IMG/VR virus record: IMGVR_UViG_3300031673_000291
Location: 1 to 32,942 of that record
DNA: 32,942 nucleotides
Source: a virus
Strand: one strand, 5' to 3'
Within the stretch, counting starts at the first letter, position 1. The number at the start of each line of letters is the position of its first letter. Both the position numbers and the translations under genes were made by a program. Below are positions 17,820 to 31,331 of the stretch, in pieces. The notes beneath the pieces were generated by a model. That model worked only from the letters and a program-made list of their open reading frames with translations. It did no database searches and was not told the DNA's origin.

Positions 17820-17820
17820 T

Positions 17821-19819: not shown

Positions 19820-19828
19820 ATTTGTTCT
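19820..19828 (-). promoter_or_regulatory. AGAACAAAT motif before prkA
   Basis: Exact motif on the minus strand in the context TATAAAAT then AGAACAAAT then AATAAAG, about 50 bases before the prkA ATG, in the divergent gap 19771-19951. Confidence 0.5.
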
Positions 19829-19874
19829 ATTTTATATCAAGAGTTTCTAAAAGAATTGGACTGGTTCATTGATA

Positions 19875-19883
19875 AGAACAAAT
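19875..19883 (+). promoter_or_regulatory. AGAACAAAT motif before the DIP1984-like gene
   Basis: Exact motif on the plus strand, preceded by TTGATA and followed by GTTATATATATT, about 69 bases before the ATG at 19952. With the minus-strand copy at 19820-19828 it forms a divergent pair. Confidence 0.45.
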
Positions 19884-19951
19884 GTTATATATATTAATTA
19901 ATGAGAAGGAAATCTTTTATTTATTTTTTTAAACTTTATGGGAGGAGTAGT

Positions 19952-20467
19952 ATGAAACTTATTGAAGGGTTAAAGAGATTGAGAATTATTGAGAAGAGGA
20001 TCAAAAGTCAAAACGCAGATATTACAAGGTACGCATCTATGATAAACACAGAGCGGCCACTTTTTGAGACTGAAGATCGACAGAAGAAAGAAGTTAAATC
20101 TTTGATTCAATCAAACATAGATTTAATAGAAGAATACTTAAGTCTGAAGAGAAGAATTGATTTAACAAATTTGAGCACATTTAGAGAGTTAATGGGAAAG
20201 AAATTTTCTATCGCTGATCTATTAAATATTCAGAGAAAAGCCAAAGACATGGGATCAAGCACTTTTCAATCTTTAAATGATAGTGCAGCTCAAAATAGAT
20301 TAGCAAGTATGAGACATATGTCATCTGAAGGAAAAACTCCTGTTGTTAATAGACTATTCACTGAAGAAGAAAGAATTAAAGGTCTAAAATATTGGCAGGA
20401 TCTATATGATTCTATTGGTGCAGTTCTTGAAATAATGAACGCAACTGTAGATCTTATTGAGGAGTAA
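19952..20467 (+). CDS. DIP1984-family protein
   Basis: A 171-residue protein. The ATG at 19952 follows GGGAGGAG; an earlier in-frame ATG at 19901 lacks a ribosome site. The start MKLIEGLKRLRIIEKRI, the middle RRIDLTNLSTF and the end AVLEIMNATVDLIEE match the DIP1984 family, found in bacteria and phages (some annotated as septicolysin). The protein is almost entirely helical, probably coiled-coil. Biochemical role unknown. It is transcribed away from prkA, and the candidate giant RNA follows it directly. Confidence 0.7.
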   Translation: MKLIEGLKRLRIIEKRIKSQNADITRYASMINTERPLFETEDRQKKEVKSLIQSNIDLIEEYLSLKRRIDLTNLSTFRELMGKKFSIADLLNIQRKAKDMGSSTFQSLNDSAAQNRLASMRHMSSEGKTPVVNRLFTEEERIKGLKYWQDLYDSIGAVLEIMNATVDLIEE

Positions 20468-20475
20468 GAACAAAT
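20467..20475 (+). promoter_or_regulatory. AGAACAAAT motif at the head of the giant RNA
   Basis: Exact motif beginning at the last base of the upstream stop codon and followed by AATAAATTTGG, immediately before the long structured region. Its position suggests that the RNA has its own transcription start. Confidence 0.45.
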
Positions 20476-21644
20476 AATAAATTTGGATTCGGTAGTGTAA
20501 AAATGGGAAATGTAAGAGCCCGCAATTAACTGGGTTATGTTAATAACTACTTATGGTAGTCGACTTGAAAATCGACTTTGTGGCGAGTAGCCAAAATATA
20601 AAGTTTCAAGAATCAAGTTATTAAGTTTAACACGATCCCCCGCGTGGATAAATGATTGGGGTTTTAAAGTCTCAAGATATGAAGGCTCAAGATATGACAC
20701 TTCAGTGTGTGGAAAAATCCAGACTTAAGTGGTGTTTTCTCTTAGACAACTCAACCACTTCTGGCTGCTATTTGGATCCAAAAAATAAATGCAAAGCAAT
20801 CTTAGGGATGCCAAGCAACCCGAATGAGATAGTTTTATAAGTTTAAAAATCAGGGTTTGTCGTTTTGTGCCTGTACGGGGTAAACGACTTTTCAAACAAG
20901 CACCTGCTATCCCCGGCGCCGGTAGGTGGTGGCTGACTTGTGAGAGAATAAAATAGAATGGGATCAGCAAATTCGCTGGTCAAAACGATCACTATTCGTG
21001 GTATTGCGCATACCAAAATAGAAGACGGTAGGCTGTGAGCCGGCCCCCATTGTAGGGCCCGATCGAAGTTTTACTTCTCCAGAATCCGTCCCCTGATTTT
21101 TAATTAGCTGCTTAGCATGGGGTCAATTGAACCGTGTCGTGAGGTCGACCTGATGAGGGTTGGGCCTCGGCAGCTGGATTAAAATCAGCCGCTTAAATAT
21201 TGGCCCTCTTTAGAGTTGCCCATGTTCGTGGGGTTGGCACATGCGTGTTGAATCCCGGCGGCTGAATTAATTTCCAGTAGCGATATAGCGATAATATATC
21301 TGCGTTCAAATCCTTGACGCAATAAGTCCTTAGTAGTGGAGACATGAAAGGGCGGGAGCGACTCCGGATTGCTTTGTCAATTTAAATTGTATAAAGGTGC
21401 TAATTATAGGATTTATCGTGTCGGTGAGAATCCGGCCTACTGGTTTTAAAATTTAGTAGCGATATAACGGGAAAATAATATATTTGAGCAGCCTTGAGCT
21501 GTCTTCCTTACTTACACTGTTATTCCGTATTTGGGTGGAGCGATAAGCTTTGAAGCCTGAACAATCGGTAGTGTGTAAACCGTGTCTGGTGAAAAACCGG
21601 CCTACTAAATTTTAAAAATTTAATAACGATATAACAAGGAAAAA
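20468..21644 (+). ncRNA. Candidate giant structured non-coding RNA (GOLLD/ROOL-like by context)
   Basis: About 1.18 kb with no credible gene and clearly more G+C than its AT-rich surroundings. Many stable hairpins can be read: AGTCGA/TCGACT (20558), GTCGTTT/AAACGAC (20859), CACCT..CCGGcgCCGG..AGGTG (about 20902), GATCAGC/GCTGGTC (about 20962), GGTAT/ATACC (about 21000), GACGG/CCGTC (21025/21086) enclosing GGCCC/GGGCC and GAAG/CTTC, GCTGGAT/ATCAGC (about 21173), TGCGT/ACGCA (21301), GGAG/CTCC and CAGC/GCTG (about 21489). A hairpin module recurs five times in the 3' half. Location just before a tRNA cluster in a phage is the usual setting of GOLLD and ROOL RNAs, but I cannot match a consensus. 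The 5' and 3' ends are estimates. Confidence 0.6.
21092..21640 (+). repeat. Five-fold recurring hairpin module in the giant RNA
   Basis: Copies near 21093, 21173, 21260, 21438 and 21603. Each is an AT-rich hairpin closed by CTG/CAG, CTACT/AGTAG or similar, followed by a GCTTA or GCGATATA(A/G)CG tail. The last three share CCGGC before the hairpin and CGATATA after it, and the final two are near-identical (CCGGCCTACT, then CGATATAAC). The spacing is about 80, 87, 178 and 165 bases, suggesting built-in periodicity. The divergence of the loops argues that structure rather than sequence is conserved. Confidence 0.6.
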
Positions 21645-21851
21645 ATGAAAAATATATTTTGTAATAATGCGACAGAAACAATGACAGTGAAAGAGTTGAT
21701 TGATCTTTTAAAAAATTTCCCTGACGATATGGCTGTTGTAGCTACATGGGAAGGACAGGTTAAGGAGATTGATCCTTTAAAGTTTCGTGTTGTGTCAGAA
21801 TATCTTTCCCCGTTAATTGAGCCTGTCCTCGAAATTGACGTTGAATATTAA
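21645..21851 (+). CDS. Hypothetical protein
   Basis: A 68-residue protein. Its core MTVKELIDLLKNFPDDMAVVATWEG is a pattern seen in many small phage proteins of unknown function (a short helix, then PxDxxVV and a strand). AAGGA lies six bases before the ATG. The gene begins at the very end of the last RNA module, so its translation could be affected by that structure. A second in-frame ATG at the MTVKEL position is a possible alternative start. Confidence 0.6.
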   Translation: MKNIFCNNATETMTVKELIDLLKNFPDDMAVVATWEGQVKEIDPLKFRVVSEYLSPLIEPVLEIDVEY

Positions 21852-21885
21852 AAGTAGAATTTGAAAACAAAGGCGTTTAATTATT

Positions 21886-21894
21886 AGAACAAAT
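21886..21894 (+). promoter_or_regulatory. AGAACAAAT motif upstream of the tRNA region
   Basis: Exact motif preceded by TTATT and followed by TTAAAATC, about 40 bases before a GGGAGG ribosome site. It could start the transcript that enters the tRNA cluster, although a terminator-like hairpin lies at 22018-22049. Confidence 0.4.
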
Positions 21895-21926
21895 TTAAAA
21901 TCATATTATACTGGGAGGTAAATGCA

Positions 21927-22016
21927 ATGTTTATACAAATATTGTTTTTATTAAAAACCAGTATACTTCCTACGCAATCTCTACAAGAACAACTCAGTAC
22001 ACCCAAACAGAAGTAA
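21927..22016 (+). CDS. Possible 29-residue peptide
   Basis: A short frame starting MFIQILFLLKTSILP after GGGAGG with suitable spacing, with a hydrophobic N-terminus and a polar tail. An alternative ATG five bases earlier gives only ten codons. It is followed at once by a terminator-like hairpin. Evidence is limited to the ribosome site, so it could be a leader or not a gene. Confidence 0.3.
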   Translation: MFIQILFLLKTSILPTQSLQEQLSTPKQK

Positions 22017-22017
22017 T

Positions 22018-22049
22018 AGCACTTCTTTAAAATAAAATTAAAGAGTGCT
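22018..22049 (+). terminator. Terminator-like hairpin before the tRNA cluster
   Basis: AGCACTTCTTTAA pairs with TTAAAGAGTGCT across a short A-rich loop (12 pairs with one bulged T), followed by TTAAAAG. The T-tract is short, so termination may be partial, or the hairpin could mark an RNA-processing site before the first tRNA. Confidence 0.5.
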
Positions 22050-22099
22050 TTAAAAGTATGATGAAATTGTTACATTATTTTTTTCGTAAGAAAAATAGT

Positions 22100-22176
22100 C
22101 GGAGGATAGCTCAGTTTGGTAGAGCACTCGGTTTGGGTCCGAGGGGCCGAAGGTTCAAGTCCTGTTCTTCCGACCA
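22100..22176 (+). tRNA. tRNA-Pro (TGG)
   Basis: A full cloverleaf. The acceptor CGGAGGA pairs with TCTTCCG, the D-arm is GCTC/GAGC, and the anticodon stem CTCGG/CCGAG holds loop TTTGGGT, giving anticodon TGG. Discriminator A and an encoded CCA are present. The C1-G72 pair is typical of bacterial tRNA-Pro. Confidence 0.9.
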
Positions 22177-22195
22177 TACATTAAAGGAGATTAAA

Positions 22196-22321
22196 ATGGC
22201 AATAAAACAATGTACATGTGAACATGAATCTCAAGATAAAATACATGGAAAACATATGAGAGTTCATAATAAAACAGCCAATGGATATCGTTGTACTGTT
22301 TGTGGTAAAGATAAAACATAA
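22196..22321 (+). CDS. Small cysteine-rich protein
   Basis: A 41-residue protein starting at ATG 22196 after AAAGGAG, just downstream of tRNA-Pro. CTCEH near the N-terminus and CTVCGK near the C-terminus suggest one zinc site. A longer frame reading back through the tRNA gene is not credible. Not recognised. Confidence 0.6.
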   Translation: MAIKQCTCEHESQDKIHGKHMRVHNKTANGYRCTVCGKDKT

Positions 22322-22333
22322 AAGGAGATTAAA

Positions 22334-22552
22334 TTGAAAAGTCTTTATGAAGGTGAAAAGTATACAGAAGATGCATGTTCATTAAGTATAGAAGCAAGCG
22401 AAATTCTTAAACCAATGTTTAAAAAATATTTTGATAAAGGATATTCATTTAGAGAAATTTCTCATATTATAATTTCAGAAGTATATTCATTAGAATGTTT
22501 AGAAATTCTAAAAAAATCAGTAAAAGATCATAAAAAAAGTAAAAGTGGTTAG
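22334..22552 (+). CDS. Hypothetical protein (TTG start, amber stop)
   Basis: A 72-residue helical protein. It starts at TTG, seven bases after AAAGGAG, and ends with TAG. The amber stop matters because an amber-suppressor tRNA is encoded at 27842. Not recognised. It overlaps or abuts the next gene depending on which start the latter uses. Confidence 0.6.
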   Translation: MKSLYEGEKYTEDACSLSIEASEILKPMFKKYFDKGYSFREISHIIISEVYSLECLEILKKSVKDHKKSKSG

Positions 22553-22556
22553 AATT

Positions 22557-22760
22557 ATGATAGAACTTATTATAGCTTTTTTATTAGGCTGTTTATGGAC
22601 AAGAACATATTATGCTAGAATCAATACAAGAACTGATTGGATGCGGAGTTATGATTGGAGTAAAAATAAAATTTATCGAAAACTTCATCGACTCAATTGT
22701 GAGTTATGTCCAAAACGATGGTACTGTAAACAATATGAGGAACAAAATAAAAGTGATTAA
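22557..22760 (+). CDS. Small membrane protein
   Basis: A 67-residue protein with an N-terminal membrane helix (MIELIIAFLLGCLW) and a basic, aromatic tail containing CELCPKRWYC. The ATG at 22557 is used; a GTG at 22545 overlaps the previous gene. The ribosome site is weak, so coupling to the previous gene is likely. Not recognised. Confidence 0.6.
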   Translation: MIELIIAFLLGCLWTRTYYARINTRTDWMRSYDWSKNKIYRKLHRLNCELCPKRWYCKQYEEQNKSD

Positions 22761-22763
22761 TAT

Positions 22764-22853
22764 CTGAGTGTAGCTCAGTCTGGTCAGAGCACCCGGCCTG
22801 GAACCGGGAGGCCCAGTGGGGATCCGTAGGTTCGAATCCTACCACTCAGACCA
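22764..22853 (+). tRNA. tRNA, anticodon TGG by geometry (Pro) or GGA (Ser); long variable arm
   Basis: Acceptor CTGAGTG pairs with CACTCAG, D-stem GCTC/GAGC, anticodon stem CCCGG/CCGGG, loop CCTGGAA, a 17-base variable region with CCC/GGG, T-arm GTAGG/CCTAC, then ACCA. Loop geometry gives TGG but puts C, not U, at position 33. Shifting by one gives GGA with U33 but breaks the stem. C1-G72 and A73 favour Pro; the long arm favours Ser. Confidence 0.8.
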
Positions 22854-22878
22854 TTATTTAATTGAAAGGAGAATAGTT

Positions 22879-23091
22879 ATGATAAAACCGTGGAAAACAT
22901 ATTATTGTACAGATCATGACTTATTTGAGCCAACAGGTTGTGCGAGTGTTGTCAGTGCTATTGACAAAAAAAGTGCAAGAAAGAAATTAAGAAAGGTTCT
23001 TAAAGAACATGGACTAAATGAGAAAAAGGAATTCACTCTTACAAGACTAAAAGTAGGAGAAACTATTATTTTATATGATGGAAATTATTAA
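22879..23091 (+). CDS. Hypothetical protein
   Basis: A 70-residue protein starting at ATG 22879 after AAAGGAG, between two tRNA genes. It is basic in the middle (KKSARKKLRKVLKEHG) and ends in strands (TLTRLKVGETIILYDG). Not recognised. Frames reading back into the upstream tRNA are rejected. Confidence 0.62.
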   Translation: MIKPWKTYYCTDHDLFEPTGCASVVSAIDKKSARKKLRKVLKEHGLNEKKEFTLTRLKVGETIILYDGNY

Positions 23092-23098
23092 CTAAAAT

Positions 23099-23183
23099 GC
23101 TAGTGTGGCGTAACTGGTAGGCGCGCTGGTCTTAGGAATCAGTGGTTTAGGCCGTGTGGGTTCAACTCCCTCCACTAGCACCA
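23099..23183 (+). tRNA. tRNA-Leu (TAG)
   Basis: Acceptor GCTAGTG pairs with CACTAGC. The anticodon stem CTGGT/ATCAG holds loop CTTAGGA, anticodon TAG. A long variable arm is present, as expected for Leu, with A73 and an encoded CCA. One mismatch is seen in the T-stem. Confidence 0.9.
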
Positions 23184-23206
23184 AAACTAATTATAAAAGG
23201 AGATAT

Positions 23207-23365
23207 ATGGCTAAATATTTTGTTTCAATAAAAAATGAAAAAAATCAATATAAAATATTTAAAGTTAAAAAAGAAGTTTATACATATATTCACCAATTAG
23301 AAACTGCTATTAGATTTCCGCAAGAAAGTAAAATTAAGGATTTATATCCTGAAAGGTTTAAATAA
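23207..23365 (+). CDS. Hypothetical protein
   Basis: A 52-residue basic protein starting at ATG 23207 after AAAAGGAG, directly following tRNA-Leu. It alternates strands and helices, with SIKNEKNQYKIFKVKKEVYTYI. Not recognised. Confidence 0.55.
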   Translation: MAKYFVSIKNEKNQYKIFKVKKEVYTYIHQLETAIRFPQESKIKDLYPERFK

Positions 23366-23370
23366 CAATT

Positions 23371-23455
23371 GGCGATATGGTGGAATTGGTAGACACGCTG
23401 GCCTCAAATCCCAGTGCATAATTGCGTACAGGTTCGACTCCTGTTGTCGCCACCA
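23371..23455 (+). tRNA. tRNA-Leu (CAA)
   Basis: Acceptor GGCGATA pairs with TGTCGCC. The anticodon loop CTCAAAT gives anticodon CAA, with a C-C mismatch at the last stem pair. It has a long variable arm, A73 and CCA. The D-arm GGTGGAATTGGTAGACAC is of the usual Leu type. Confidence 0.88.
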
Positions 23456-23457
23456 AT

Positions 23458-23531
23458 GGGGGTATAGCTCAGGGGCCGAGCAGGAGGCTTTTAACCTTCA
23501 GACTGGGGTTCGATTCCCCATGCCCTCACCA
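23458..23531 (+). tRNA. tRNA-Lys (TTT)
   Basis: Only two bases after the previous tRNA. Acceptor GGGGGTA pairs with TGCCCTC, D-stem GCTC/GAGC, anticodon stem GGAGG/CCTTC with loop CTTTTAA, anticodon TTT, then A73 and CCA. The pair probably shares one precursor. Confidence 0.88.
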
Positions 23532-23551
23532 AAGATAAAAAAGGAGTGTAA

Positions 23552-23848
23552 ATGTTTTATGTTTATTTAGGTTTAGCAACAAGTACATCTATAAGTATAT
23601 TAGTATTATTTATTACTTTTTTAATATATCTGATAAAATTTAAAGAAAATATATTTGACTGTTATTGGCAGGGACCATTTTTTGAAACTATTATGGTATC
23701 TTTGTTAATACTTACAGTTTTTCCATTTACTATTTATATGTGTTGTTCAATGTTAAAAACAGACTGGAAAACAGAAAAACAGATATTAGAAAAAAAGAGA
23801 GAGAAAACACCTTGGTGGAAACTTAAAGAATTTGGGGGAAAATTATGA
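23552..23848 (+). CDS. Membrane protein, two helices
   Basis: A 98-residue protein with two hydrophobic segments (about residues 5-29 and 46-66) separated by a short loop, and a lysine-rich cytoplasmic-type tail. AAAGGAG precedes the ATG. The stop overlaps the next ATG (ATGA). Not recognised. The following gene encodes another small membrane protein, so the two may act together. Confidence 0.62.
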   Translation: MFYVYLGLATSTSISILVLFITFLIYLIKFKENIFDCYWQGPFFETIMVSLLILTVFPFTIYMCCSMLKTDWKTEKQILEKKREKTPWWKLKEFGGKL

Positions 23849-24021
23849 ATATACTGAATACATTATTTCTTTTATGTAGCACTGGTTTTTTCATATATAT
23901 GGCTGTAATATGGACAACAAGAGGAATTTATAATACTCTTATAAAATTATATTTGGTTACTTCTTATATAGCAGGTATAATTCTAATACTTTATAAATAT
24001 GGATATTTACTCAAAGTTTAA
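23845..24021 (+). CDS. Small membrane protein (58 residues)
   Basis: A 58-residue protein with two hydrophobic helices: LNTLFLLCSTGFFIYMAVIW, then LVTSYIAGIILILY. Its ATG overlaps the previous stop (ATGA), and its TAA ends at the base before a tRNA begins, so the message must be cut at the tRNA 5' end. Not recognised. Confidence 0.6.
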   Translation: MNILNTLFLLCSTGFFIYMAVIWTTRGIYNTLIKLYLVTSYIAGIILILYKYGYLLKV

Positions 24022-24096
24022 GCCGGTATAGCTCAAGCGGTAGAGCGGGTGACCTGTAATCATCTGACCGGGGTTCGACTCCTCGTATCGGCTCCA
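24022..24096 (+). tRNA. tRNA-Thr (TGT) with C33
   Basis: Acceptor GCCGGTA pairs with TATCGGC, D-stem GCTC/GAGC, anticodon stem GGTGA/TCATC, loop CCTGTAA, four-base variable region, T-stem CGGGG/CCTCG, then TCCA. The anticodon is TGT by geometry. Position 33 is C instead of the near-universal U. Reading GTA with U33 would break the stem, and tRNA-Tyr normally has a long arm. Confidence 0.85.
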
Positions 24097-24114
24097 TTTA
24101 AAAAGGAAAAATTA

Positions 24115-24474
24115 ATGGAAAAAATAGTAATTGAATATTGTGAAGATGGAATATATTTTTCAGATCAAGGATCATGGGAGTGGTTGTACGGACTTCAAAA
24201 TAATATTCTAAGAAACGGGGTTAAAAATCAACATATAAAAGTTTCAAGTGAATTAATGGTTGAACTAACTAGACTTCTTGTTATTAGAAAAATAATAAAA
24301 TCAGATCAAATAATATATAAGTATAAAGATGAATTTATTTCAATAAAGAAAGATGGTGGTTTAGTTAATTGGCCAAAAGGATTTTGTGACAATAAAGATT
24401 TAATATTAGAAGAACTTATTGATTTCAGATTTAAATTGAAAGGAAAAATAGATGAACACACCTCCAAAGATTGA
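24115..24474 (+). CDS. Hypothetical protein
   Basis: A 119-residue protein starting at ATG 24115 after AAAAGGA, just after tRNA-Thr. Upstream in-frame codons lie in the tRNA and are excluded. It has alternating helices and ends in a charged tail (LKGKIDEHTSKD). It overlaps the next small gene by 23 bases. Not recognised. Confidence 0.65.
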   Translation: MEKIVIEYCEDGIYFSDQGSWEWLYGLQNNILRNGVKNQHIKVSSELMVELTRLLVIRKIIKSDQIIYKYKDEFISIKKDGGLVNWPKGFCDNKDLILEELIDFRFKLKGKIDEHTSKD

Positions 24475-24613
24475 AACATGCAAAATATGTAAAAAGTTAT
24501 ATGATCCAAAAGAAACAAAGAGAATATATGGCGATATACCTGTATTGTATGGATGTTGTTCTTCAAGATGTTATACTAAATTACAAACTTCTGATAATAA
24601 ATTTTTAAAATAA
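24452..24613 (+). CDS. Small zinc-binding protein (53 residues)
   Basis: A 53-residue protein with CKIC (about residues 10-13) and GCCSSRC (about 34-40), like a treble-clef or FCS-type finger. AAAGGA precedes the ATG, inside the end of the upstream gene. Possibly nucleic-acid binding. Not recognised further. Confidence 0.6.
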   Translation: MNTPPKIETCKICKKLYDPKETKRIYGDIPVLYGCCSSRCYTKLQTSDNKFLK

Positions 24614-24624
24614 AGGAGTAAATA

Positions 24625-24768
24625 ATGAAAAAAGAATTACTAGAAAAAATGAATAATATTTACAAAGAATTTGGAATTGATATTCATATAATACCCAACT
24701 CATTACAATCTCAAATAAACTTACTTGTTAAAGAGATTATAAAACTAAGAAGAAAAAAGGAAAAATAG
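24625..24768 (+). CDS. Small helical protein (47 residues), amber stop
   Basis: A 47-residue helical protein ending in a basic stretch (KLRRKKEK). AAAGGAG lies before the ATG. It stops at TAG directly followed by the ATG of the next gene, with no gap. Suppression of this TAG would fuse the two proteins in frame. Not recognised. Confidence 0.55.
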   Translation: MKKELLEKMNNIYKEFGIDIHIIPNSLQSQINLLVKEIIKLRRKKEK

Positions 24769-25122
24769 ATGAGCACATCACCGATGATTAAAGAGATGTT
24801 AAAAAAATATGAAGAACAAAATGGAAAAGAAAATACTTTCGAACTTATAGAATTTTTAATAAATTCATATCTTAGTATTATTGAACAATTTGGAATATCT
24901 TTATTAAAAAACGGAGTACAAAGTCAAGATATTGAACAAGTAATTTTCCAGTTAATTATAAGTAATAATAGAAAACGAAATACATATCAAACTGCTGATG
25001 ATGATAAGAAACAAGTTATGGATGCGTTAGGTGAATTTCTTTCATCTGGTGTTATGTCTACCATTATATTAGCCTATCAAGAATATAATAAATGGGATAA
25101 TGCACCAAAAACTTTACAGTAA
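24769..25122 (+). CDS. Hypothetical protein
   Basis: A 117-residue, mostly helical acidic protein. It is in the same frame as the preceding 47-residue gene and separated from it only by the TAG, so readthrough would give a 165-residue fusion. AAAAGGA lies near the end of the upstream gene as its ribosome site. Not recognised. Confidence 0.65.
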   Translation: MSTSPMIKEMLKKYEEQNGKENTFELIEFLINSYLSIIEQFGISLLKNGVQSQDIEQVIFQLIISNNRKRNTYQTADDDKKQVMDALGEFLSSGVMSTIILAYQEYNKWDNAPKTLQ

Positions 25123-25154
25123 TTGTTTTAAATTATAGCCCCGTTAAAGATTAT

Positions 25155-25239
25155 GGGGGTGTTGTCTAGAGGTCTAAGACACAGGGCTTTGAACCCTGGG
25201 CTTATAGCTTCGTAGGTTCGAATCCTACCGCCCCTTCCA
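25155..25239 (+). tRNA. tRNA-Gln (TTG) with long variable arm
   Basis: Acceptor GGGGGTG pairs with CGCCCCT (ending in a G-T pair), D-stem GTCT/AGAC, anticodon stem CAGGG/CCCTG, loop CTTTGAA, anticodon TTG, and a 13-base variable region with GCT/AGC, then TCCA. Gln tRNAs normally have a short variable loop. Ser (TGA) would need a shifted loop that breaks the stem. Confidence 0.82.
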
Positions 25240-25249
25240 CATCTTTCTA

Positions 25250-25258
25250 AGAACAAAA
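25250..25258 (+). promoter_or_regulatory. AGAACAAAA variant motif before HNH gene
   Basis: One-base variant (AGAACAAAA) of the recurrent motif, 28 bases before the HNH start at 25286. It also forms part of a CTAAGAA/TTCTTAG hairpin. Confidence 0.35.
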
Positions 25259-25285
25259 TTAAAATTCTTAGGTGGGGTAATAAAT

Positions 25286-25936
25286 ATGGATCTTTGTAAT
25301 TTCGGTTGTGGAAACCAAGCTTCTTATGTTTTTAAAAATGGAAAGAATTGTTGTTCAGAATTTGTAGTACAATGTCCAGAAGTCAGAAGGAAAAATTCTT
25401 TAAAAATCAAAGGTAAACAATATTGTTATAAATCAAAAGTAACATATTTAAATAAAAATTATAAATATTATTGTATATATTGTGGAAAACCTTTAATAAA
25501 TAAGTTTAATAAAAATGTACATGAAATTGTATGTTCAATGAATCCAAAAAATGTAAAATTTTGTTATTGTGGAAATATTATTCTTAATAAAACAAGCAGA
25601 ACATGTTCTTACTATTGTTCTAATAAAATATTTAAAAATCAAAAAAAGAAAAAAGACTTGAGTATAGATAAACATAGAGATATTGCTTTTCGGTATCATA
25701 GAAAACAATGTATTATTTGTAATGAAAAAAATATTGTAGAAGTACATCATTATGACAATAATCACTATAATAATAATCCGATTAATTTTATACCTTTATG
25801 TCCAACACATCATAAATATGTACATAGTAAATATAAAATTTTAATACAAGATAAAATTAATATATACTACAAAAACTTTAAAAGGATTTTTGATCACTGG
25901 ATAAGACATAATAGTAATTTTATTGTTGAAGACTAA
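25286..25936 (+). CDS. HNH endonuclease with N-terminal zinc module
   Basis: A 216-residue protein. N-terminal module CNFGCGNQASYVFKNGKNCC (residues 4-23); then zinc pairs CIYCGK, CYCGN and CSYYC; and a C-terminal classical HNH domain CIICNEKNIVEVHHYDNN with INFIPLCPTHHKYVH. The middle and HNH parts closely parallel the 31380-31997 gene. Probably a free-standing homing endonuclease placed between tRNA genes, with its own upstream motif. Confidence 0.85.
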   Translation: MDLCNFGCGNQASYVFKNGKNCCSEFVVQCPEVRRKNSLKIKGKQYCYKSKVTYLNKNYKYYCIYCGKPLINKFNKNVHEIVCSMNPKNVKFCYCGNIILNKTSRTCSYYCSNKIFKNQKKKKDLSIDKHRDIAFRYHRKQCIICNEKNIVEVHHYDNNHYNNNPINFIPLCPTHHKYVHSKYKILIQDKINIYYKNFKRIFDHWIRHNSNFIVED

Positions 25937-25957
25937 TATGATAAACAGGAGAAGAAT

Positions 25958-26389
25958 TTGGAAACATTAAAAACGTGTCATGATTGTGGAGCAAAAGAAG
26001 GAGAACTCCACTATATTGGTTGTGATTATGAAAGATGTCCATTTTGTGGCGGACAGTTGTTAGCTTGTGGTTGTTGTTATACAGAACTAGGTTTTGATTA
26101 TGGGTGGAATAAAGAACCTTATTGTGGTTTACCCAAAGACATTTATGAAAATGGATTACCTCCTGATCTTGAAGAAAAATGGGAAAATATTCTCAATGAA
26201 AAAGGGAGAGTTCCATATATATTTTATCCAAATGTATGTGCAAGATGTGGAAAATTAATGCCAGATTTGTTTCAAGTTTCTAATGAAGAATGGGAGCATT
26301 ATATTGAGATAGGTGAAAGAAAAAATGTTATTTGTAGAGAATGTTATAATTACATCAAAAAAATCATTGATGAAAATACAGGAACTTAA
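25958..26389 (+). CDS. Multi-zinc-ribbon protein
   Basis: A 143-residue protein starting at TTG 25958 after AGGAGAAG. Cysteine pairs: CHDCG, CPFCGGQ with CGCCY, CARCGK and CREC. The central [16 protein letters not shown] is typical of small phage ribbons. No catalytic motif is seen. Function unknown. Confidence 0.65.
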
Positions 26390-26392
26390 AAC

Positions 26393-26480
26393 GGTGAGGT
26401 GCTCGAGTGGTCTAAAAGAGCGGTTTGCTAAATCGTCGGGTGTAACAGCCCCGTAGGTTCGAATCCTACCCTCACCGCCA
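26393..26480 (+). tRNA. tRNA-Ser (GCT)
   Basis: Acceptor GGTGAGG pairs with CCTCACC. The anticodon stem GCGGT/ATCGT holds loop TTGCTAA, anticodon GCT. It has a long variable arm, T-arm GTAGG/CCTAC, G73 (usual for Ser) and CCA. Confidence 0.9.
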
Positions 26481-26497
26481 TATTAAAAGGAGTAAAA

Positions 26498-26701
26498 ATG
26501 GCTGCAATTATTATTGATAGGTGTGGACAATTGTGTCCATTCTTTGAATGCGATGATCGTATTCATAACATAAAATCAAGATGTTTTTTAGATCCAACAT
26601 TATCAACTTGGCGATATTTTGAACCTCAAGAAAAAGGAAGTATGCCAAAAAACTGTCCTATGAAAAGACGAAAACAAGTTAAAGTAATATTTAAGGAGTG
26701 A
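26498..26701 (+). CDS. Cysteine-rich small protein
   Basis: A 67-residue protein with CGQLCPFFECDD near the start, a single Cys in the middle (RCFLDP) and NCPMKRRK near the end. It follows tRNA-Ser with an AAAAGGAG site. Possibly metal-binding. Not recognised. Confidence 0.6.
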   Translation: MAAIIIDRCGQLCPFFECDDRIHNIKSRCFLDPTLSTWRYFEPQEKGSMPKNCPMKRRKQVKVIFKE

Positions 26702-26705
26702 AATA

Positions 26706-27074
26706 ATGAGACCTGAGAATGCAGATGTTACATATTGGCAAGTTCAAGCACAATGGACAACAAATAAGAAAGATAAAAAATGGTTTTTTCATACTTATTG
26801 TGATCTTGTTACTTCAAAAACATATGGTAAATATAAAAATAATGACGATGATCCTTCAGCATGTGGAAATTGTTGGCAAATATATGGAATAAATGGAGTG
26901 TTAAATGAAGAAGCTGGAATTAAATGGTTAGAATTAGTTAGAAGAGAAAACAGACTTCAAGAACAGAATTCACCAGATAGAATTCCAATATGGGGTAGAC
27001 ATAAACATATTCCAGTGAAATTTCGTTTAGCTAAAATTCATATTATAAAGACTACAGAAGAATTAAACATTTAA
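26706..27074 (+). CDS. Hypothetical protein
   Basis: A 122-residue protein with AAGGAG before the ATG, four bases after the previous stop. It is rich in aromatic residues (TYWQVQAQW, KKWFFHTYCD) with a single CGNC pair. Not recognised. Confidence 0.65.
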   Translation: MRPENADVTYWQVQAQWTTNKKDKKWFFHTYCDLVTSKTYGKYKNNDDDPSACGNCWQIYGINGVLNEEAGIKWLELVRRENRLQEQNSPDRIPIWGRHKHIPVKFRLAKIHIIKTTEELNI

Positions 27075-27098
27075 ATTAGATGTTTACCAAAACTTTTT

Positions 27099-27107
27099 AG
27101 AACAAAT
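27099..27107 (+). promoter_or_regulatory. AGAACAAAT motif before a leader ORF and hairpin
   Basis: Exact motif preceded by TTTTT, followed by ATATGTATT and then, within 35 bases, AAAGGAG and a very short leader ORF. Confidence 0.45.
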
Positions 27108-27139
27108 ATATGTATTAAAAAATCAAAGGAGATTATAAT

Positions 27140-27154
27140 ATGCGTCGATCATAG
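27140..27154 (+). other. Possible four-codon leader ORF ending in amber
   Basis: AAAGGAG, eight bases of spacing, then ATG CGT CGA TCA TAG. In this frame the next two stops are also TAG (27170 and 27224), with no TAA or TGA until the frame is well inside the next gene. It may be a regulatory leader. There is no proof of translation. Confidence 0.35.
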
Positions 27155-27187
27155 ATTTTTATACCGCCGTAGATTAACGAGTCTCGT

Positions 27188-27248
27188 GGTCCTCCCTCTC
27201 AAACTCTTCTTGGTAATGTTACTTAGAAAATAGTAGGAGGGAGAGACC
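27188..27248 (+). promoter_or_regulatory. Hairpin hiding the ribosome site of the 27249 gene
   Basis: GGTCCTCCCTC (27188-27198) pairs with GAGGGAGAGACC (27237-27248), 11 pairs with one bulged A. The 3' strand contains the GGAGGGAG ribosome site and ends at the base before the ATG, so folding would block initiation. The loop is about 38 bases. Confidence 0.65.
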
Positions 27249-27572
27249 ATGATACATCCATTTACAAAAGTAAAAATTTCTCAGAAGGAAAAAGCTCAAA
27301 AAATCAGAGATTTTAAATTCTGTAGAAAAGCAAAAAATAGAGTTGGAAATCCTGCATTACAAAATTTATTTGATAATGCATGGAAAGTATTTCGTATTAG
27401 TTGGGAATATAGACACACTCATATTGCTTATTGTGAAATCAGAGGCAAAGAGCGATCTCAAATTGAAATTCCCAGAGAAGATAATCTACCCAATGAAAAT
27501 AAAATTTCAAAAATTAAAGATTCCATTCTTAAAGAGATTGAAGAACATGAAGCTCTACGTAGTAGTTCGTAA
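27249..27572 (+). CDS. Hypothetical protein under hairpin control
   Basis: A 107-residue basic protein, not recognised. It is notable for the strong stem-loop that covers its ribosome site. Its end overlaps the Pth2-like gene by 26 bases, so the hairpin may control both. It contains helices rich in Lys, Arg and Glu (SKIKDSILKEIEEHEAL). Confidence 0.65.
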   Translation: MIHPFTKVKISQKEKAQKIRDFKFCRKAKNRVGNPALQNLFDNAWKVFRISWEYRHTHIAYCEIRGKERSQIEIPREDNLPNENKISKIKDSILKEIEEHEALRSSS

Positions 27573-27834
27573 CGATTTATCACAATCTCAAAAGTCTGTA
27601 CAAGCAGGACATGCAATTGCAGAGTTTCTACTTCATAGACAAACAAAATGGGATAATGGAACTCTTATAATTCTAGGGGTAGATAATAAACAAGAACTTG
27701 AAAAATTAACATATCGGTTAGATATGAGAAGTATTGATTGGGTTGGATTTAAAGAACCTGATATTGGTAATGAAATAACAGCCATTGCTTCAGATCAAAG
27801 ATGCAGGCTATTTTCTAATTTAAAACTAGTTTAA
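27547..27834 (+). CDS. Pth2-like peptidyl-tRNA hydrolase
   Basis: A 95-residue protein starting at ATG 27547 inside the end of the upstream gene. MKLYVVVRNDLSQSQKSVQAGHA matches the Pth2 start (V(V/L)RxDLxMxxGKxAAQxxHA), followed by WDNGTLIILGVDNKQELEKL and an end that aligns with the TAIA segment. Pth2 releases peptides from stalled peptidyl-tRNA and is typical of archaea, eukaryotes and some phages. The usual length is about 115, so this is a short version. It lies just before the suppressor tRNA, consistent with a role in phage translation. Confidence 0.65.
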   Translation: MKLYVVVRNDLSQSQKSVQAGHAIAEFLLHRQTKWDNGTLIILGVDNKQELEKLTYRLDMRSIDWVGFKEPDIGNEITAIASDQRCRLFSNLKLV

Positions 27835-27841
27835 ATAGTGA

Positions 27842-27919
27842 TGGTCAGTAGCTTAGTCTGGTCTAAAGCCGAGGTCTCTAAAACCTTGATCGTGGGTTCG
27901 AATCCCATCTGGCCAACCA
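27842..27919 (+). tRNA. Amber-suppressor tRNA (anticodon CTA)
   Basis: Acceptor TGGTCAG pairs with CTGGCCA, D-stem GCTT/AAGC, anticodon stem GAGGT/ACCTT, loop CTCTAAA with U33, anticodon CTA, four-base variable region, T-arm GTGGG/CCCAT, A73 and CCA. CTA reads UAG. The loop differs by one base from that of tRNA-Trp (CTCCAAA), and U1-A72 occurs in Gln tRNAs, so the amino acid is uncertain. Confidence 0.88.
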
Positions 27920-27932
27920 AGTAAAGGAGAAT

Positions 27933-28235
27933 ATGAAAAATTCTACTGGAAAATATTATACAGATAAAGAACCAGATCGTTCAAATTGTCCAAGTAGAAG
28001 ATGGATGGTGGGGATAGGGCAGGGTATCTGGTGTAGTAATGAGAAAAATAAGGGCAAAGATTTAGAGCAGGGTATTCATAGAAATTTTAATCAACCATTG
28101 TTACCATTTTCATATGCTTTTGTTTGTGATAACTATAACGGAAAGATTGAATGGAAACTTACATATTGTAAAGTTGAAGATTTACCAGATTTACCACCAT
28201 ATCCATTTGTTAAAGAAGAACTGAATAAGAAATAA
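27933..28235 (+). CDS. Hypothetical protein
   Basis: A 100-residue protein after AAAGGAG, following the suppressor tRNA. It is rich in aromatic residues and proline near the C-terminus (LPDLPPYPFVKEE). Not recognised. Confidence 0.62.
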   Translation: MKNSTGKYYTDKEPDRSNCPSRRWMVGIGQGIWCSNEKNKGKDLEQGIHRNFNQPLLPFSYAFVCDNYNGKIEWKLTYCKVEDLPDLPPYPFVKEELNKK

Positions 28236-28242
28236 AATATAT

Positions 28243-28326
28243 GACTCTGTCGTCTAGTAATACTAGTAGGGAAGGACGCTGGCAACGCGCTAGTACGATG
28301 GGTTCGAGTCCTATCCGGAGTCATCA
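28243..28326 (+). tRNA. Aberrant tRNA, anticodon ACG by geometry; hairpin in D-loop
   Basis: Acceptor GACTCTG pairs with CGGAGTC, D-stem GTCT/GGAC around an 18-base loop in which CTAGT pairs with ACTAG, anticodon stem GCTGG/CTAGT with loop CAACGCG (A at 33), a six-base T-stem GATGGG/CCTATC, then A and TCA instead of CCA. May be a degenerate or specialised tRNA. It is a sibling of the next one. Confidence 0.6.
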
Positions 28327-28333
28327 AACATAT

Positions 28334-28418
28334 GGTTCTGTATTCTAGTAGTACTAGTTGGAGCAGACGCTAGTTTGGAGCTAGAGGTGATGGGTTCGAT
28401 CCCCATTCAGAACCTCCA
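28334..28418 (+). tRNA. Aberrant tRNA, anticodon TGG by geometry; hairpin in D-loop
   Basis: Acceptor GGTTCTG pairs with CAGAACC, a weak D-stem with a long loop holding CTAGT/ACTAG, anticodon loop TTTGGAG on a four-pair CTAG/CTAG stem, T-arm ATGGG/CCCAT with one extra base, then TCCA. It is homologous to the 28243 tRNA over most of its length. It would be a further TGG tRNA if functional. Confidence 0.65.
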
Positions 28419-28469
28419 ATTAATGAAAAAGAGAGTAGTGATCCTATAAGGATAACCATATCATTTTTA

Positions 28470-28478
28470 AGAACAAAT
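28470..28478 (+). promoter_or_regulatory. AGAACAAAT motif before endonuclease gene
   Basis: Exact motif preceded by ATTTTTA and followed by AAATAAAAAGG, 14 bases before the ATG at 28492. Confidence 0.45.
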
Positions 28479-28491
28479 AAATAAAAAGGTT

Positions 28492-29448
28492 ATGGATATG
28501 GAATTATGTCATTATGGGTGTGGACAAAAAGCAAAATTTATTTTCAAAAATGGAAAATTATGTTGTTCAAAAAATCATAAACAATGTCCAAATAAAAAAG
28601 AATCTAAACATGATTATAAAAATGATAAATCACACAAAAAAGTAAATTGTAAATACTGTAATAAAGAATTCTTTTATTCAAATTTAAAACAACATGAATC
28701 ATCATGCTATTTAAAACCAGAAAACATAAGAACCTGTTTAAATTGCAGAAAAATATTAAATGGCCGCGATCAAAAAAAATATTGTTCAAAAAAATGCTTT
28801 GCTTCCCATACACATACAACAAAAAAGAAAAAACAATCAAAAGAGACTAAAAGAAAAATTAGTACAAGTGTTAAAAATATTTCACCAACTAGATCAGATG
28901 CATTAAAAAAACCAGTTATGATAGAGATTAAATGCCCAATTTGTGGTAATATTAAAAAAATTAAAACAACAGCACCTGGTTCATTTAGTAAAACAAAATC
29001 TTGTTCTAAAAAATGTTTAAGTAAACTTTTATCGAAAAAATCAATAGAAAGTGGTTGTGGTGGTTATCGAGAAGGTTCTGGTCGTAGTAAAAGTGGTTAT
29101 TACAAAGGAGTGTATTGTGGTAGTAGTTATGAATTAATATTTTTAGTATATCATTTGAATATAGGGTCAAATATTAAAAGATGTAAATTAAAAATACCGT
29201 ATACATATAACGGGCAAAATCATCATTATTATCCTGATTTTGAAATAGATAATATTATATATGAAATAAAAGGGTTTTATAATAAAATTGTAGATATTAA
29301 AACTAATGCAGTAATTAATGCAGGTTATAAAATAGAAGTTTTATATTTAAAAGATCTTCAACCAATGTTAGACTGTATTAAAAATAAATTTAAAATAAAA
29401 AATATAATAAAACTATATGAACAAAAAACGCTTCTGTCTTCTAGTTAG
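28492..29448 (+). CDS. PD-(D/E)XK-type endonuclease with shared zinc module
   Basis: A 318-residue protein. N-terminal module CHYGCGQKAKFIFKNGKLCC (6-25); zinc pairs CKYCNKEF, CLNCRK, CSKKC and CPICGN; a NUMOD3-like stretch (KETKRKISTSVKN); then a C-terminal domain with SYELIFLVYHL, YYPDFEIDNIIYEIKGFYNK, a PD-(D/E)xK nuclease core (PDF...EIK) instead of HNH. The last codons and the TAG stop lie inside the following tRNA-Glu gene. Likely a homing-type endonuclease. Confidence 0.8.
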   Translation: MDMELCHYGCGQKAKFIFKNGKLCCSKNHKQCPNKKESKHDYKNDKSHKKVNCKYCNKEFFYSNLKQHESSCYLKPENIRTCLNCRKILNGRDQKKYCSKKCFASHTHTTKKKKQSKETKRKISTSVKNISPTRSDALKKPVMIEIKCPICGNIKKIKTTAPGSFSKTKSCSKKCLSKLLSKKSIESGCGGYREGSGRSKSGYYKGVYCGSSYELIFLVYHLNIGSNIKRCKLKIPYTYNGQNHHYYPDFEIDNIIYEIKGFYNKIVDIKTNAVINAGYKIEVLYLKDLQPMLDCIKNKFKIKNIIKLYEQKTLLSSS

Positions 29449-29507
29449 GCTTAGGATGTTAGACCTTCAATCTAATGACACCAGTTCAAATCTGGTCAGA
29501 AGCACCA
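29430..29507 (+). tRNA. tRNA-Glu (TTC) with C33
   Basis: Acceptor GCTTCTG pairs with CAGAAGC, D-stem TTCT/AGGA, anticodon stem TTAGA/TCTAA, loop CCTTCAA, anticodon TTC, T-arm ACCAG/CTGGT, A73 and CCA. C replaces U at position 33, and there is one extra base before the anticodon stem. The 5' 19 bases overlap the endonuclease gene. Confidence 0.85.
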
Positions 29508-29517
29508 ATTAAAATTC

Positions 29518-29596
29518 GGTGGTGTAGTCTAGTTTGGTCGATGACGCCGGGTTGTCAGCTCGGAGAACGCGGGTTCAAATCCCGCCATCACCGCCA
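29518..29596 (+). tRNA. tRNA-Asp (GTC)
   Basis: Acceptor GGTGGTG pairs with CATCACC, D-stem GTC/GAC, anticodon stem CCGGG/CTCGG, loop TTGTCAG, anticodon GTC, T-arm CGGG/CCCG, G73 as in bacterial Asp, and CCA. Confidence 0.9.
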
Positions 29597-29604
29597 TTAA
29601 CAAA

Positions 29605-29689
29605 GGGGGAATAGACGAACTGGTCTAGTCAATGGGTTTAAGCCCCATGCGTTTAACGCGTCCGGGTTCGACTCCCGGTTCCCCTACCA
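29605..29689 (+). tRNA. tRNA-Leu (TAA)
   Basis: Acceptor GGGGGAA pairs with TTCCCCT (ending in a G-T pair), D-stem GAC/GTC, anticodon stem ATGGG/CCCAT, loop TTTAAGC, anticodon TAA. It has a long variable arm (GCGTTTAACGC), T-arm CCGGG/CCCGG, A73 and CCA. Confidence 0.9.
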
Positions 29690-29813
29690 TTTTTGATTGA
29701 AGGTTGAAAAAAATATAATTCAAAGAGAAATTAGTAGACGGAGTAATGAATGAAGCAAAAAACATATTGGGGATATATATTTAATAACCAGAAATCATAA
29801 AGGAGAAGATTTA

Positions 29814-30134
29814 CTGAAAACAAATGAAGTTTTAAAGATTTTTGGATATTCAAAAAATACTTATATTAATAATACTAAAATATATCCATTTATACAACTA
29901 ATAACACATACACATCCAGTTCAATATTGGAAAATAAGAAATAATGAGGTTGCTGTTCTATATAAAGATTTACCAGATGCTATAAAAAAACGGATAGGGT
30001 CCTTAACGACTAACATTCAACATACATCACATTATTTCAACATTATAGATCCAGATAATAAAATAAGATATTTTATTAGAGAAGAACGAATCCCATTTTG
30101 GAAATTAGCAAAATATGGCGGATATATTATATAA
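29814..30134 (+). CDS. Hypothetical protein with non-ATG (CTG) start
   Basis: An open frame of 106 codons that contains no methionine codon. AAGGAG lies eight bases before a CTG in frame, the best start. The product begins LKTNEVLKIFGYSKNTYIN, with the look of a helix-turn-helix, then NNEVAVLYKDLPDAIKKRI, and ends KLAKYGGYII. The frame uses codons like its neighbours. It could be a gene started at CTG, or a pseudogene whose ATG became CTG. The DNA between the tRNA end (29690) and this frame holds no other signal. Confidence 0.5.
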   Translation: MKTNEVLKIFGYSKNTYINNTKIYPFIQLITHTHPVQYWKIRNNEVAVLYKDLPDAIKKRIGSLTTNIQHTSHYFNIIDPDNKIRYFIREERIPFWKLAKYGGYII

Positions 30135-30145
30135 AGGAGAATAAC

Positions 30146-30298
30146 ATGGAAGTTTTAGAAATTAAAGAACTTGAAGATGGTGGTGCAACAATAGAATTAG
30201 AAATGACAGAAGAAGAAAATAATCTTCTGGTGGGTTATGCTGTAAATAATATTTTAAAAAAATCCATTAAGGAGTTAGAAGATGCAGATAACGCTTGA
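30146..30298 (+). CDS. Small acidic protein (50 residues)
   Basis: Starts at ATG 30146 after AAAGGAG. An acidic, mostly helical product (LEIKELEDGGATIELEMTEE). The end overlaps the next gene by 17 bases. Not recognised. Confidence 0.6.
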   Translation: MEVLEIKELEDGGATIELEMTEEENNLLVGYAVNNILKKSIKELEDADNA

Positions 30299-30482
30299 AG
30301 AAAGTTTAGATCTTATTTCTAAACTACAAACAAAATTTAATAATTCTGGTAGCCCAAAAGATAGATATGCATATGTTGCAGCAATAGAAAAAGAATCAAA
30401 AGATATATTAGATTCAATAACAAAAATTAAAGAAGAATATCATAATATTTTTATTAGTTCAGTGATTGATATTGAACGATAA
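30282..30482 (+). CDS. Small helical protein
   Basis: A 66-residue helical protein with AAGGAG before the ATG, inside the end of the previous gene. Likely coiled-coil (KEYxxI spacing). Not recognised. Confidence 0.58.
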   Translation: MQITLEESLDLISKLQTKFNNSGSPKDRYAYVAAIEKESKDILDSITKIKEEYHNIFISSVIDIER

Positions 30483-30804
30483 CACTGTTTTTATCCAACC
30501 ATTATATCATTATAAGAATACGATAGATATGAATATGAAAAAAGCATATCCTTCAGATCAATATTTTTTAATAAGACTTATTAAGTATGGTAAAATAACA
30601 ATGGAGGACTATCATATACAAATGGGTTATATGTCAGGATATAAGAAGTGTTGTATTGATAATTTTATTAAATTATTAAATTATGGTCCCAGCAAGTTTG
30701 TTGGAGTAAGTGCATACATGGATAAAAAATATGGTTCAGACTTAAAGGAAATACACCATGTAAGGTGTAAAAAATGTCGTGTTATTAAAAAGGAGATAAA
30801 ATGA
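30466..30804 (+). CDS. Hypothetical cysteine-containing protein
   Basis: A 112-residue frame whose first possible start is TTG at 30466 in the end of the previous gene. An internal ATG near 30530 gives a shorter product. Neither has a good ribosome site. It contains YKKCC and CKKCR near the C-terminus. Not recognised. Confidence 0.5.
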   Translation: MILNDNTVFIQPLYHYKNTIDMNMKKAYPSDQYFLIRLIKYGKITMEDYHIQMGYMSGYKKCCIDNFIKLLNYGPSKFVGVSAYMDKKYGSDLKEIHHVRCKKCRVIKKEIK

Positions 30805-31043
30805 GAATTAAATGTTCTGCATGCGGACAAGTTCATGATAGTGACGTATTTCCTTTTAAACATAATACTGTAAAAGCAACAAATGAAAGACGTCAAGTTT
30901 TAAATACTAATCTTCTTCTACCTAATCTTGTTTTAAATATTAAAGAAGCAGAAGCTAAGTTTGTTTGTAAACATTGTCTTGCACCAAATTTTGTAGTTTT
31001 AAGATGGCAGTCAATAGTTGAAGAAGATAAGAACGAATCGTAA
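30801..31043 (+). CDS. Zinc-ribbon protein
   Basis: An 80-residue protein with CSACGQ (5-10) and CKHC (about 55-58), a four-cysteine ribbon separated by a helical insert. AAAGGAG precedes the ATG, which overlaps the previous stop. It ends four bases before tRNA-Ile. Confidence 0.65.
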   Translation: MRIKCSACGQVHDSDVFPFKHNTVKATNERRQVLNTNLLLPNLVLNIKEAEAKFVCKHCLAPNFVVLRWQSIVEEDKNES

Positions 31044-31047
31044 ATTT

Positions 31048-31124
31048 AGCGGGGTAGCTCAGTTGTGTAGAGCACTGTCTTGATAAGGCAGGGGTCGTGG
31101 GTTCAAATCCCTCCCTCGCTACCA
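31048..31124 (+). tRNA. tRNA-Ile (GAT)
   Basis: Acceptor AGCGGGG pairs with CCTCGCT, D-stem GCTC/GAGC, anticodon stem CTGTC/GGCAG, loop TTGATAA, anticodon GAT, T-arm GTGGG/CCCTC, A73 and CCA. Confidence 0.9.
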
Positions 31125-31144
31125 AATTTTAAAGAGGTTTTAAA

Positions 31145-31252
31145 ATGAGAAATTTAGTCATTCTATCAATCATTGTGGTTGTTATTTATGGTGTTGCTTA
31201 TTGGAGATTTCATAAAACAAATAAACAACTCAATGATGATAAAAAGAAATAA
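31145..31252 (+). CDS. Single-span membrane peptide (35 residues)
   Basis: A 35-residue product: one membrane helix (LVILSIIVVVIYGVAYW) with a short charged tail. AGAGG lies ahead of the ATG. It lies between tRNA-Ile and the initiator tRNA. Not recognised. Confidence 0.5.
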   Translation: MRNLVILSIIVVVIYGVAYWRFHKTNKQLNDDKKK

Positions 31253-31256
31253 CTGA

Positions 31257-31331
31257 CGCGGGTTGGGGGAGTTGGTCGTCCCCGCTGGGCTCATATCCCG
31301 GAAATCACGGGTTCGAATCCCGTACCCGCTA
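31257..31331 (+). tRNA. Initiator tRNA-fMet (CAT)
   Basis: The acceptor CGCGGGT faces ACCCGCT, so C1 is opposite U72, unpaired. D-stem GGGG/CCCC; anticodon stem CTGGG/CCCGG with the three G-C pairs next to the loop that mark initiators; loop CTCATAT, anticodon CAT; T-arm ACGGG/CCCGT; A73. CCA is not encoded. Unpaired C1 and the GGG/CCC stem distinguish it from elongator Met. Confidence 0.85.

Follow-up and report, generated by a model that had tools for sequence, protein, structure and literature searches.

The tRNA cluster of phage T4 contains two stable RNAs that are not tRNAs, known as RNAs C and D. In type III toxin-antitoxin systems, RNA repeats that are processed into units of ~35 nt precede the gene of an RNase toxin with the ToxN fold. 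Assembly into a homo-oligomer consisting of RNA only is a trait of the GOLLD and ROOL RNAs. Both of these are large structured phage RNAs of unknown function that are found near tRNA genes (PMC12286853). OLE RNA, a structured RNA of about 600 nt with dedicated protein partners, is found in bacterial hosts (PMC9723947, PMC11332333). Here, we describe a phage locus in which structured RNAs precede a tRNA cluster, and in which one of them follows a gene for a DIP1984-like protein. The locus lies in IMG/VR record IMGVR_UViG_3300031673_000291, and the whole 32.9-kb stretch of phage DNA analyzed is referred to below as the window.

A gene-free stretch upstream of a tRNA cluster

The initial annotation had described positions 20468 to 21644 of the window as free of genes, higher in G+C than the flanks, dense in hairpins, and located on the strand of the tRNA genes that follow, and all four descriptions held up. 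The longest ORFs inside are 62 and 81 amino acids long, on opposite strands, and neither is credible. The G+C content is 0.40 to 0.47 versus roughly 0.27 to 0.34 in the flanks, and the minimum free energy of positions 20468 to 21450 is -307.5 versus -272.9 +/- 8.8 for dinucleotide shuffles (z = -3.92, with 0 of 20 shuffles as good). Fourteen tRNA genes (22100..31331, plus strand) follow on the same strand, the first at 22100. A small ORF of 68 amino acids with a weak match to phrog_5861 is found directly downstream of the gene-free stretch (21645..21851, plus strand); loci carrying this ORF are unrelated to the stretch. Within the tRNA cluster, a tRNA with a CUA anticodon (27842-27919), called tRNA-Pyl by ARAGORN, is a possible amber suppressor, and the window genes show no sign of TAG being read as sense despite its presence. 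The second tRNA-Pro(UGG), at 22764-22853, has a variable loop enlarged by an insertion.

The motif AGAACAAAT, reported for the 5' edge of the stretch, is indeed present there (20467-20475, plus strand), where it overlaps the upstream gene's stop codon and lies just 5' of the helix P1 described below. It is general rather than region specific, since the window contains 11 copies versus 1.3 expected. Because the copies are enriched, lie mainly in intergenic DNA, and point the same way as the gene downstream, we consider AGAACAAAT a promoter-like motif. A similar motif is found at the equivalent place in three related loci, L083, L088, and L098.

Several other features of the window were observed. 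SpoVR, DUF444, and PrkA genes, which are known to occur together in bacterial hosts, are located at positions 13715-19770, and this block is absent from the syntenic place in the related locus L062. Positions 5651-8872 encode a family B DNA polymerase with a uracil-DNA glycosylase domain fused at its N terminus (UDG-PolB). A module of ~40 residues is common to the ORFs at 8935-9795, 16983-17819, 25286-25936, 28492-29448, and 31380-31997, and also occurs in an L062 gene (4230-4358).

The stretch is a row of separate RNAs

Searches with the Rfam models for GOLLD, ROOL, OLE, HEARO, and tmRNA, proposed in the initial annotation, gave no match in positions 19780-22100 at an E value of <=5. With all of Rfam 15, only tRNAs were found at the gathering score, and relaxed thresholds gave nothing relevant for the region. 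The proposal of a structured phage RNA beside tRNA genes, belonging to a known or a new class, thus stands in that the RNA is structured and falls outside Rfam 15; membership in GOLLD or ROOL does not. A blastn search of the region against INPHARED gave no match, and no RNA homologue was found in relatives anchored on PrkA. Relatives were found via the DNA polymerase, first L062 (248 kb, syntenic) and then 27 further loci. The homologues show covariation, presented below, and no conserved reading frames; neither of the two refuting outcomes that the initial annotation set for homologues was thus observed.

The stretch had been proposed to be a single giant RNA of ~1.1 kb, and this was not borne out, because two of its parts, modules A and B, have separate patterns of inheritance among the relatives. 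Matches to the 5' part lie in L083, L088, L086, and L098, and those to the middle part lie in L062, L073, and L086, where the site differs from that in the window. In the latter three relatives, module B heads the tRNA operon, directly behind a divergent promoter region, and module A is kilobases away. In L083, L088, L098, and L147, module A is found at the protein gene, and no module B was found in the sequence examined; in L074, the module B site is empty. Several separate folded phage RNAs, arranged in a row on the strand of the tRNA cluster, make up the gene-free region.

Module B (20843..21103, plus strand; TTAAAAATCAGGG / CCCTGATTTTTAA), the second structured RNA of the row, folds with a z score of -3.65. 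Its closing and inner helices pair in homologues with different sequences, and the simplest guess is that it serves the tRNA operon as a structured leader. Module C (21104..21644, plus strand) consists of tandem domains bounded by AGTAGCGATATARCG and GTCNGGTGARAANCCGGCCTACT (repeats D1, D2, and I1), with a helix of 16/16 pairs between 21444-21459 and 21602-21617. No homologue of module C was found in the loci of the relatives or by pattern in IMG/VR, and scans of IMG/VR and genome contigs with module B and C motif patterns gave chance matches, none, or the contig of L062 only. A likeness by eye of module C to a cobalamin riboswitch element was dropped because Rfam gave nothing.

Module A follows a gene for a DIP1984-like protein

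The gene immediately upstream of the stretch (19952..20467, plus strand, in an ORF spanning 19901-20467) encodes a DIP1984/DUF6847-like protein of 171 amino acids with a pI of 9.1; the start at 19952 was chosen by homology and by the preceding GGGAGG. The AlphaFold model of the protein (pLDDT of 87.8) gave a moderate Foldseek match to PDB 3kdq (prob 1.00, TM 0.54-0.58, E value of 2.3e-3), a conserved protein of Corynebacterium diphtheriae that is DIP1984 by family match, and it also matched proteins of known phages. At the sequence level, matches to NCBIfam NF038048 (DIP1984) and Pfam PF20935 (DUF6847) are weak and do not reach the curated cutoffs: the window member scored 12.7 bits versus a cutoff of 70, and the best member gave E values of 4.9e-4 (NCBIfam) and 9.5e-4 (Pfam). 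All eight aligned members matched phrog_1491 (best E value, 1.9e-11), which is labeled tail fiber, a label that is probably wrong for this protein.

A homologous gene of ~175 codons is located upstream of module A in every relative. The gene is present in 10 of 22 related records, and module A follows it in 9/9 of those with downstream sequence, the tenth ending at a contig edge; because two records, G027 and G037 (L147 and L148), look like the same or near-identical phages, this amounts to about nine independent lineages, including that of the window. The gene ends ~6 to 24 nt before module A starts, with the exception of L104, in which another ORF lies between them. In L147, ~1 kb of AGTGAACCA repeats with a period of about 24 nt was observed upstream of the DIP1984-like gene (positions 1-1000).

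Module A is a structured RNA of 301 nt (20482..20782, plus strand) closed by helix P1 (TTTGGATTCGG / TTGGATCCAAA). Its homologues in the relatives were recovered by nhmmer with E values of 1e-75 to 1e-23, and a profile search added L101, L103, and L104, which are records of L074, L073, and L062, respectively, at 1e-31 to 1e-50, and L147/L148 at 1e-23. An alignment of module A, designated A3, displays a plan of P1, two H-type pseudoknots, four AAG motifs on each side of the second pseudoknot, and a two-part 3' hairpin. P1 occurs as GGAUUC/GGAUCC, GGGUUC/GGACCC, and GGGUUU/AAACCC. Across the eight sequences of A3, 94.1% of pair cells are paired and 10 pairs have changed on both sides, a result equaled by 0 of 500 shuffles, and structures slid along the alignment reach ~45% or less; with this number of sequences, the covariation is good but not deep.

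In pseudoknot 1 (20518..20543, plus strand), GCCC at 20518-20521 pairs with GGG at 20532-20534, in the loop of the hairpin UUAAC/GUUAA (20526-20530 / 20539-20543). The hairpin covaries (UUAAC/GUUAA, CUAUC/GAUAG, CUAAC/GUUAG, and CAUAU/AUAUG, checked by hand, since it is misregistered in A3), and the CCC/GGG pairs are invariant. The first heptad block (20601..20627, plus strand) has four AAG units at ~7-nt spacing and is conserved in A3. It is followed by pseudoknot 2 (20631..20661, plus strand), a CACG/CGUG hairpin with a loop, CCCC, that pairs with GGGG at 20658-20661, with covarying pairs in both helices. The second heptad block (20667..20696, plus strand), also conserved in A3, again has four AAG units (AAGTCTC AAGATATG AAGGCTC AAGATATG), and the 3' hairpin (20714..20769, plus strand; AAAAUCCAGA...UCUGGCUG) is shared with the known phages described below.

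The gene is followed by a large gap in known phages

A tblastn search indicated that ~700 phage records, GenBank and RefSeq duplicates included, carry the gene. Twenty known phages were sampled, namely LAh_9 and vB_CsaP_009, named by the structural matches, and 18 chosen for host and taxonomic diversity rather than at random. In 20/20, T5-like phages among them, the homologue is followed by a gap of 339 to 605 nt that is mostly unannotated (605 nt in LAh_9 and 384 nt in vB_CsaP_009). In the T5-like phage IrisVonRoten (NC_130053), it lies at 64909-65350, flanked by the protein gene bas32_0072 and by bas32_0073. Gaps of at least 330 nt were found at 16/16 tabulated loci versus 7/160 other neighbors (Fisher P value of 1e-17), and the hosts range from Gram-negative bacteria to Clostridioides and Lactococcus. 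This suggests that an RNA gene has been missed by annotation in hundreds of phage genomes. In XD2, the protein gene itself is unannotated, and the end of the gap was set at the next annotated coding sequence. Mydo has a 44-amino-acid ORF annotated within the gap, and in LAh_9 the 3' motif described below (20336-20397) overlaps an annotated coding sequence of 38 amino acids, LAh9_26 (L119:20256-20372), which is probably not a real gene.

Two matches to known RNA families in these gaps were set aside: STnc100 in LAh_9 (L119:19953-20084; 36.9 bits, below the cutoff of 47) and YrlA in Ea35-70 (44.5, below the cutoff of 69). The variable domain of the RNAs from Erwinia phage Ea35-70, Pseudomonas phage XD2, and Cronobacter phage 009 contains T-arm-like or permuted tRNA-like hairpins (GGTTCGANTCC; L127:3253-3316 and the gaps of L138 and L121).

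A shared RNA plan

The gap RNAs follow a common plan: a closing helix, heptad-spaced (C/U)AA(A)G repeats, and a covarying AAAUCC...GGCUG hairpin beside the closing helix. The closing helix has 9 to 21 bp in most of them and bounds ~300 to 440 nt (AGACTAGTAAATCGGTAGACG/TGTTTATCGGTTTACTAGTTT in rokbiter); for a few phages, including BM15, PVPSE1, and Hena1, the automatically assigned helix is in doubt. Autocorrelation of YAA across 25 RNAs gave z scores of 8.5 at a lag of 7 and 8.2 at a lag of 14. The 3' motif, AA(A)(U/C)CC-stem...stem-CUG with fairly constant spacing, is present in 21/28 RNAs versus 0.16 expected. In an alignment of the 3' stem from 16 phages, 100% of cells are paired, partly by construction, because members were located with the stem rule; there are 16 double changes, and the alignment was equaled by 0 of 500 shuffles, with slid controls at <=56%.

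An independent test of the class is given by a covariance model, R1, which was trained on 16 known phages only, with the clade of the window excluded. R1 matched the held-out phages IrisVonRoten (2e-11) and phiR201 (9e-11), both close relatives of the training member rokbiter, as well as LAh_9 (7e-8) and Hena1 (2.5e-7). In the window, an unfiltered search of 9 kb placed the top match of the stretch at 20714-20769, on the 3' hairpin of module A (18.2 bits, E value of 6e-4). The best matches in 137 kb were L083 (2.5e-4), L098 (1.3e-3), and L086 (0.037), and with default filters L088, L101, L103, L104, and L147 were missed. Sequence-only profiles (nhmmer) failed to link the window clade with the known phages (best E value, 0.19), so homology across the groups is structural and positional, and the case for the wider class is built from synteny, anatomy, and a single structural motif.

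Intrinsic terminators follow P1 in seven phages (XaC1, BM15, Hades, LC76P1, XD2, VCM, and ventosus), and promoter-like sites ranking in about the top 3% stand just before P1 in XD2, Hena1, PVPSE1, and Mydo. Because such sites are strong in only some phages, we do not claim independent transcription for all members.

Discussion

The phages examined have in common the pairing with the protein gene, the position behind it, a closing helix, heptads, and a covarying 3' hairpin, with two pseudoknots in the window clade, and we are confident that they represent a new class of phage RNA paired with a DIP1984-like gene. A search, mainly of the open-access literature, found no Rfam family and no paper describing this class. 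Large structured phage RNAs of unknown role are a known kind; this class and its pairing with a protein appear to be new.

The best explanation as a whole, and a probable one, is that module A and its partner make up a phage ribonucleoprotein module. A 7-nt spacing of a short purine-containing motif would suit a multimer, and the DIP1984-like protein is the only constant protein; we therefore lean slightly toward a ribonucleoprotein in which this protein binds the heptads. The helical, basic protein, as an oligomer, would contact the regularly spaced AAG motifs, with P1 and the pseudoknots keeping them in register. Alternatively, the heptads could be the binding site of a different protein, or they could serve as an A-rich structural element. 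More tentatively, the particle might act in trans during infection instead of serving as a leader for the gene that follows. Because the RNA is often found within tRNA clusters, the particle could conceivably target host translation or RNA metabolism, and we put forward a role in either as speculation. The chances appear evenly balanced that many large tailed phages, in ~700 records, carry an uncatalogued RNA-protein machine that combines a DIP1984-like oligomer with a pseudoknotted heptad-repeat RNA; if so, its RNA has gone unannotated and its protein has been mislabeled "tail fiber."

The main rival is a cis-acting 3' untranslated region: the DIP1984-like protein would bind the heptads within the mRNA that encodes it and so control the stability of this mRNA or the next gene. 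This rival ranks first because most members have no clear promoter of their own: most phages lack a good promoter before P1, which in most of them begins 6 to 37 nt past the stop codon, and strand and order are constant everywhere. However, a terminator-like hairpin separates gene and RNA in AR1086, an extra ORF does so in L104, strong promoter-like sites stand right before P1 in the four phages named above, and the phage promoter-like motif occupies this place in the window, L083, L088, and L098. The size and the pseudoknots are also beyond those of usual autoregulatory elements, and we consider this reading improbable.

The RNA might instead act independently of the protein, perhaps titrating a host defense nuclease or RNA-binding protein as a decoy or sponge, with co-location merely reflecting operon structure. 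Its frequent position within tRNA clusters and the T-arm-like hairpins that the variable domain contains in Ea35-70, XD2, and CsaP009 would fit such a role, but pairing with one and the same protein persists from phages of Gram-negative hosts to those of Clostridioides and Lactococcus, making this an unlikely account. Slightly less likely still is a pair resembling a type III toxin-antitoxin system, with the repeat RNA neutralizing a harmful DIP1984-like protein. Here, too, a protein is paired with a repeat-bearing RNA, and bacterial relatives of the protein are annotated as septicolysin and occur on plasmids. Against this, the protein gene precedes the RNA, the reverse of the type III order, the repeats are 7 nt rather than processed units of ~35 nt, no ToxN-type RNase fold was among the best 50 PDB matches of the partner protein, and the pair occurs in large phages.

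A single giant RNA of the GOLLD or ROOL kind, spanning all 1.2 kb, could be argued for from the contiguity of the stretch, its location on one strand, and its good folding in its entirety, but this reading is largely contradicted by synteny, as modules A and B occur apart in relatives, and with module A closed by its own P1 and no Rfam match, it is very unlikely. A decayed or recoded protein-coding gene, which the tRNA with the CUA anticodon might have suggested, is refuted by compensatory changes across homologues and by the fact that positions 20468-21644 have no open frame even with TAG read as sense.

Returning to the predicted ribonucleoprotein, the likeness to type III toxin-antitoxin systems lies in a protein gene adjoining a repeat-bearing RNA, and the module A pair differs in order, repeat length, and protein fold. 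The T4 RNAs C and D are shorter than module A and are not known to have a DIP1984-like neighbor. The DIP1984/DUF6847 family (PDB 3kdq; "septicolysin") resembles the partner in predicted fold and by weak family matches, whereas the partner sequence falls below the curated cutoffs, and the literature found describes no RNA partner for the family. OLE and module A are both structured RNAs with protein partners, that of module A being predicted, but OLE differs in its bacterial hosts, its length of ~600 nt, and its proteins, and the region has no OLE match in Rfam. GOLLD and ROOL share with the region a location in phages by tRNA genes, which is not specific, and differ from module A, which is ~300 nt long, has heptad repeats and a constant protein neighbor, and has no Rfam match. 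That GOLLD- and ROOL-type RNAs have no known function is partly due to a lack of tractable partners and model systems. The new class has a constant protein partner with a relative of solved structure, and its members include RNAs of T5-like phages of Escherichia coli K-12 (IrisVonRoten/bas32), which are easy to handle. Expression, binding, and deletion are therefore immediately testable.
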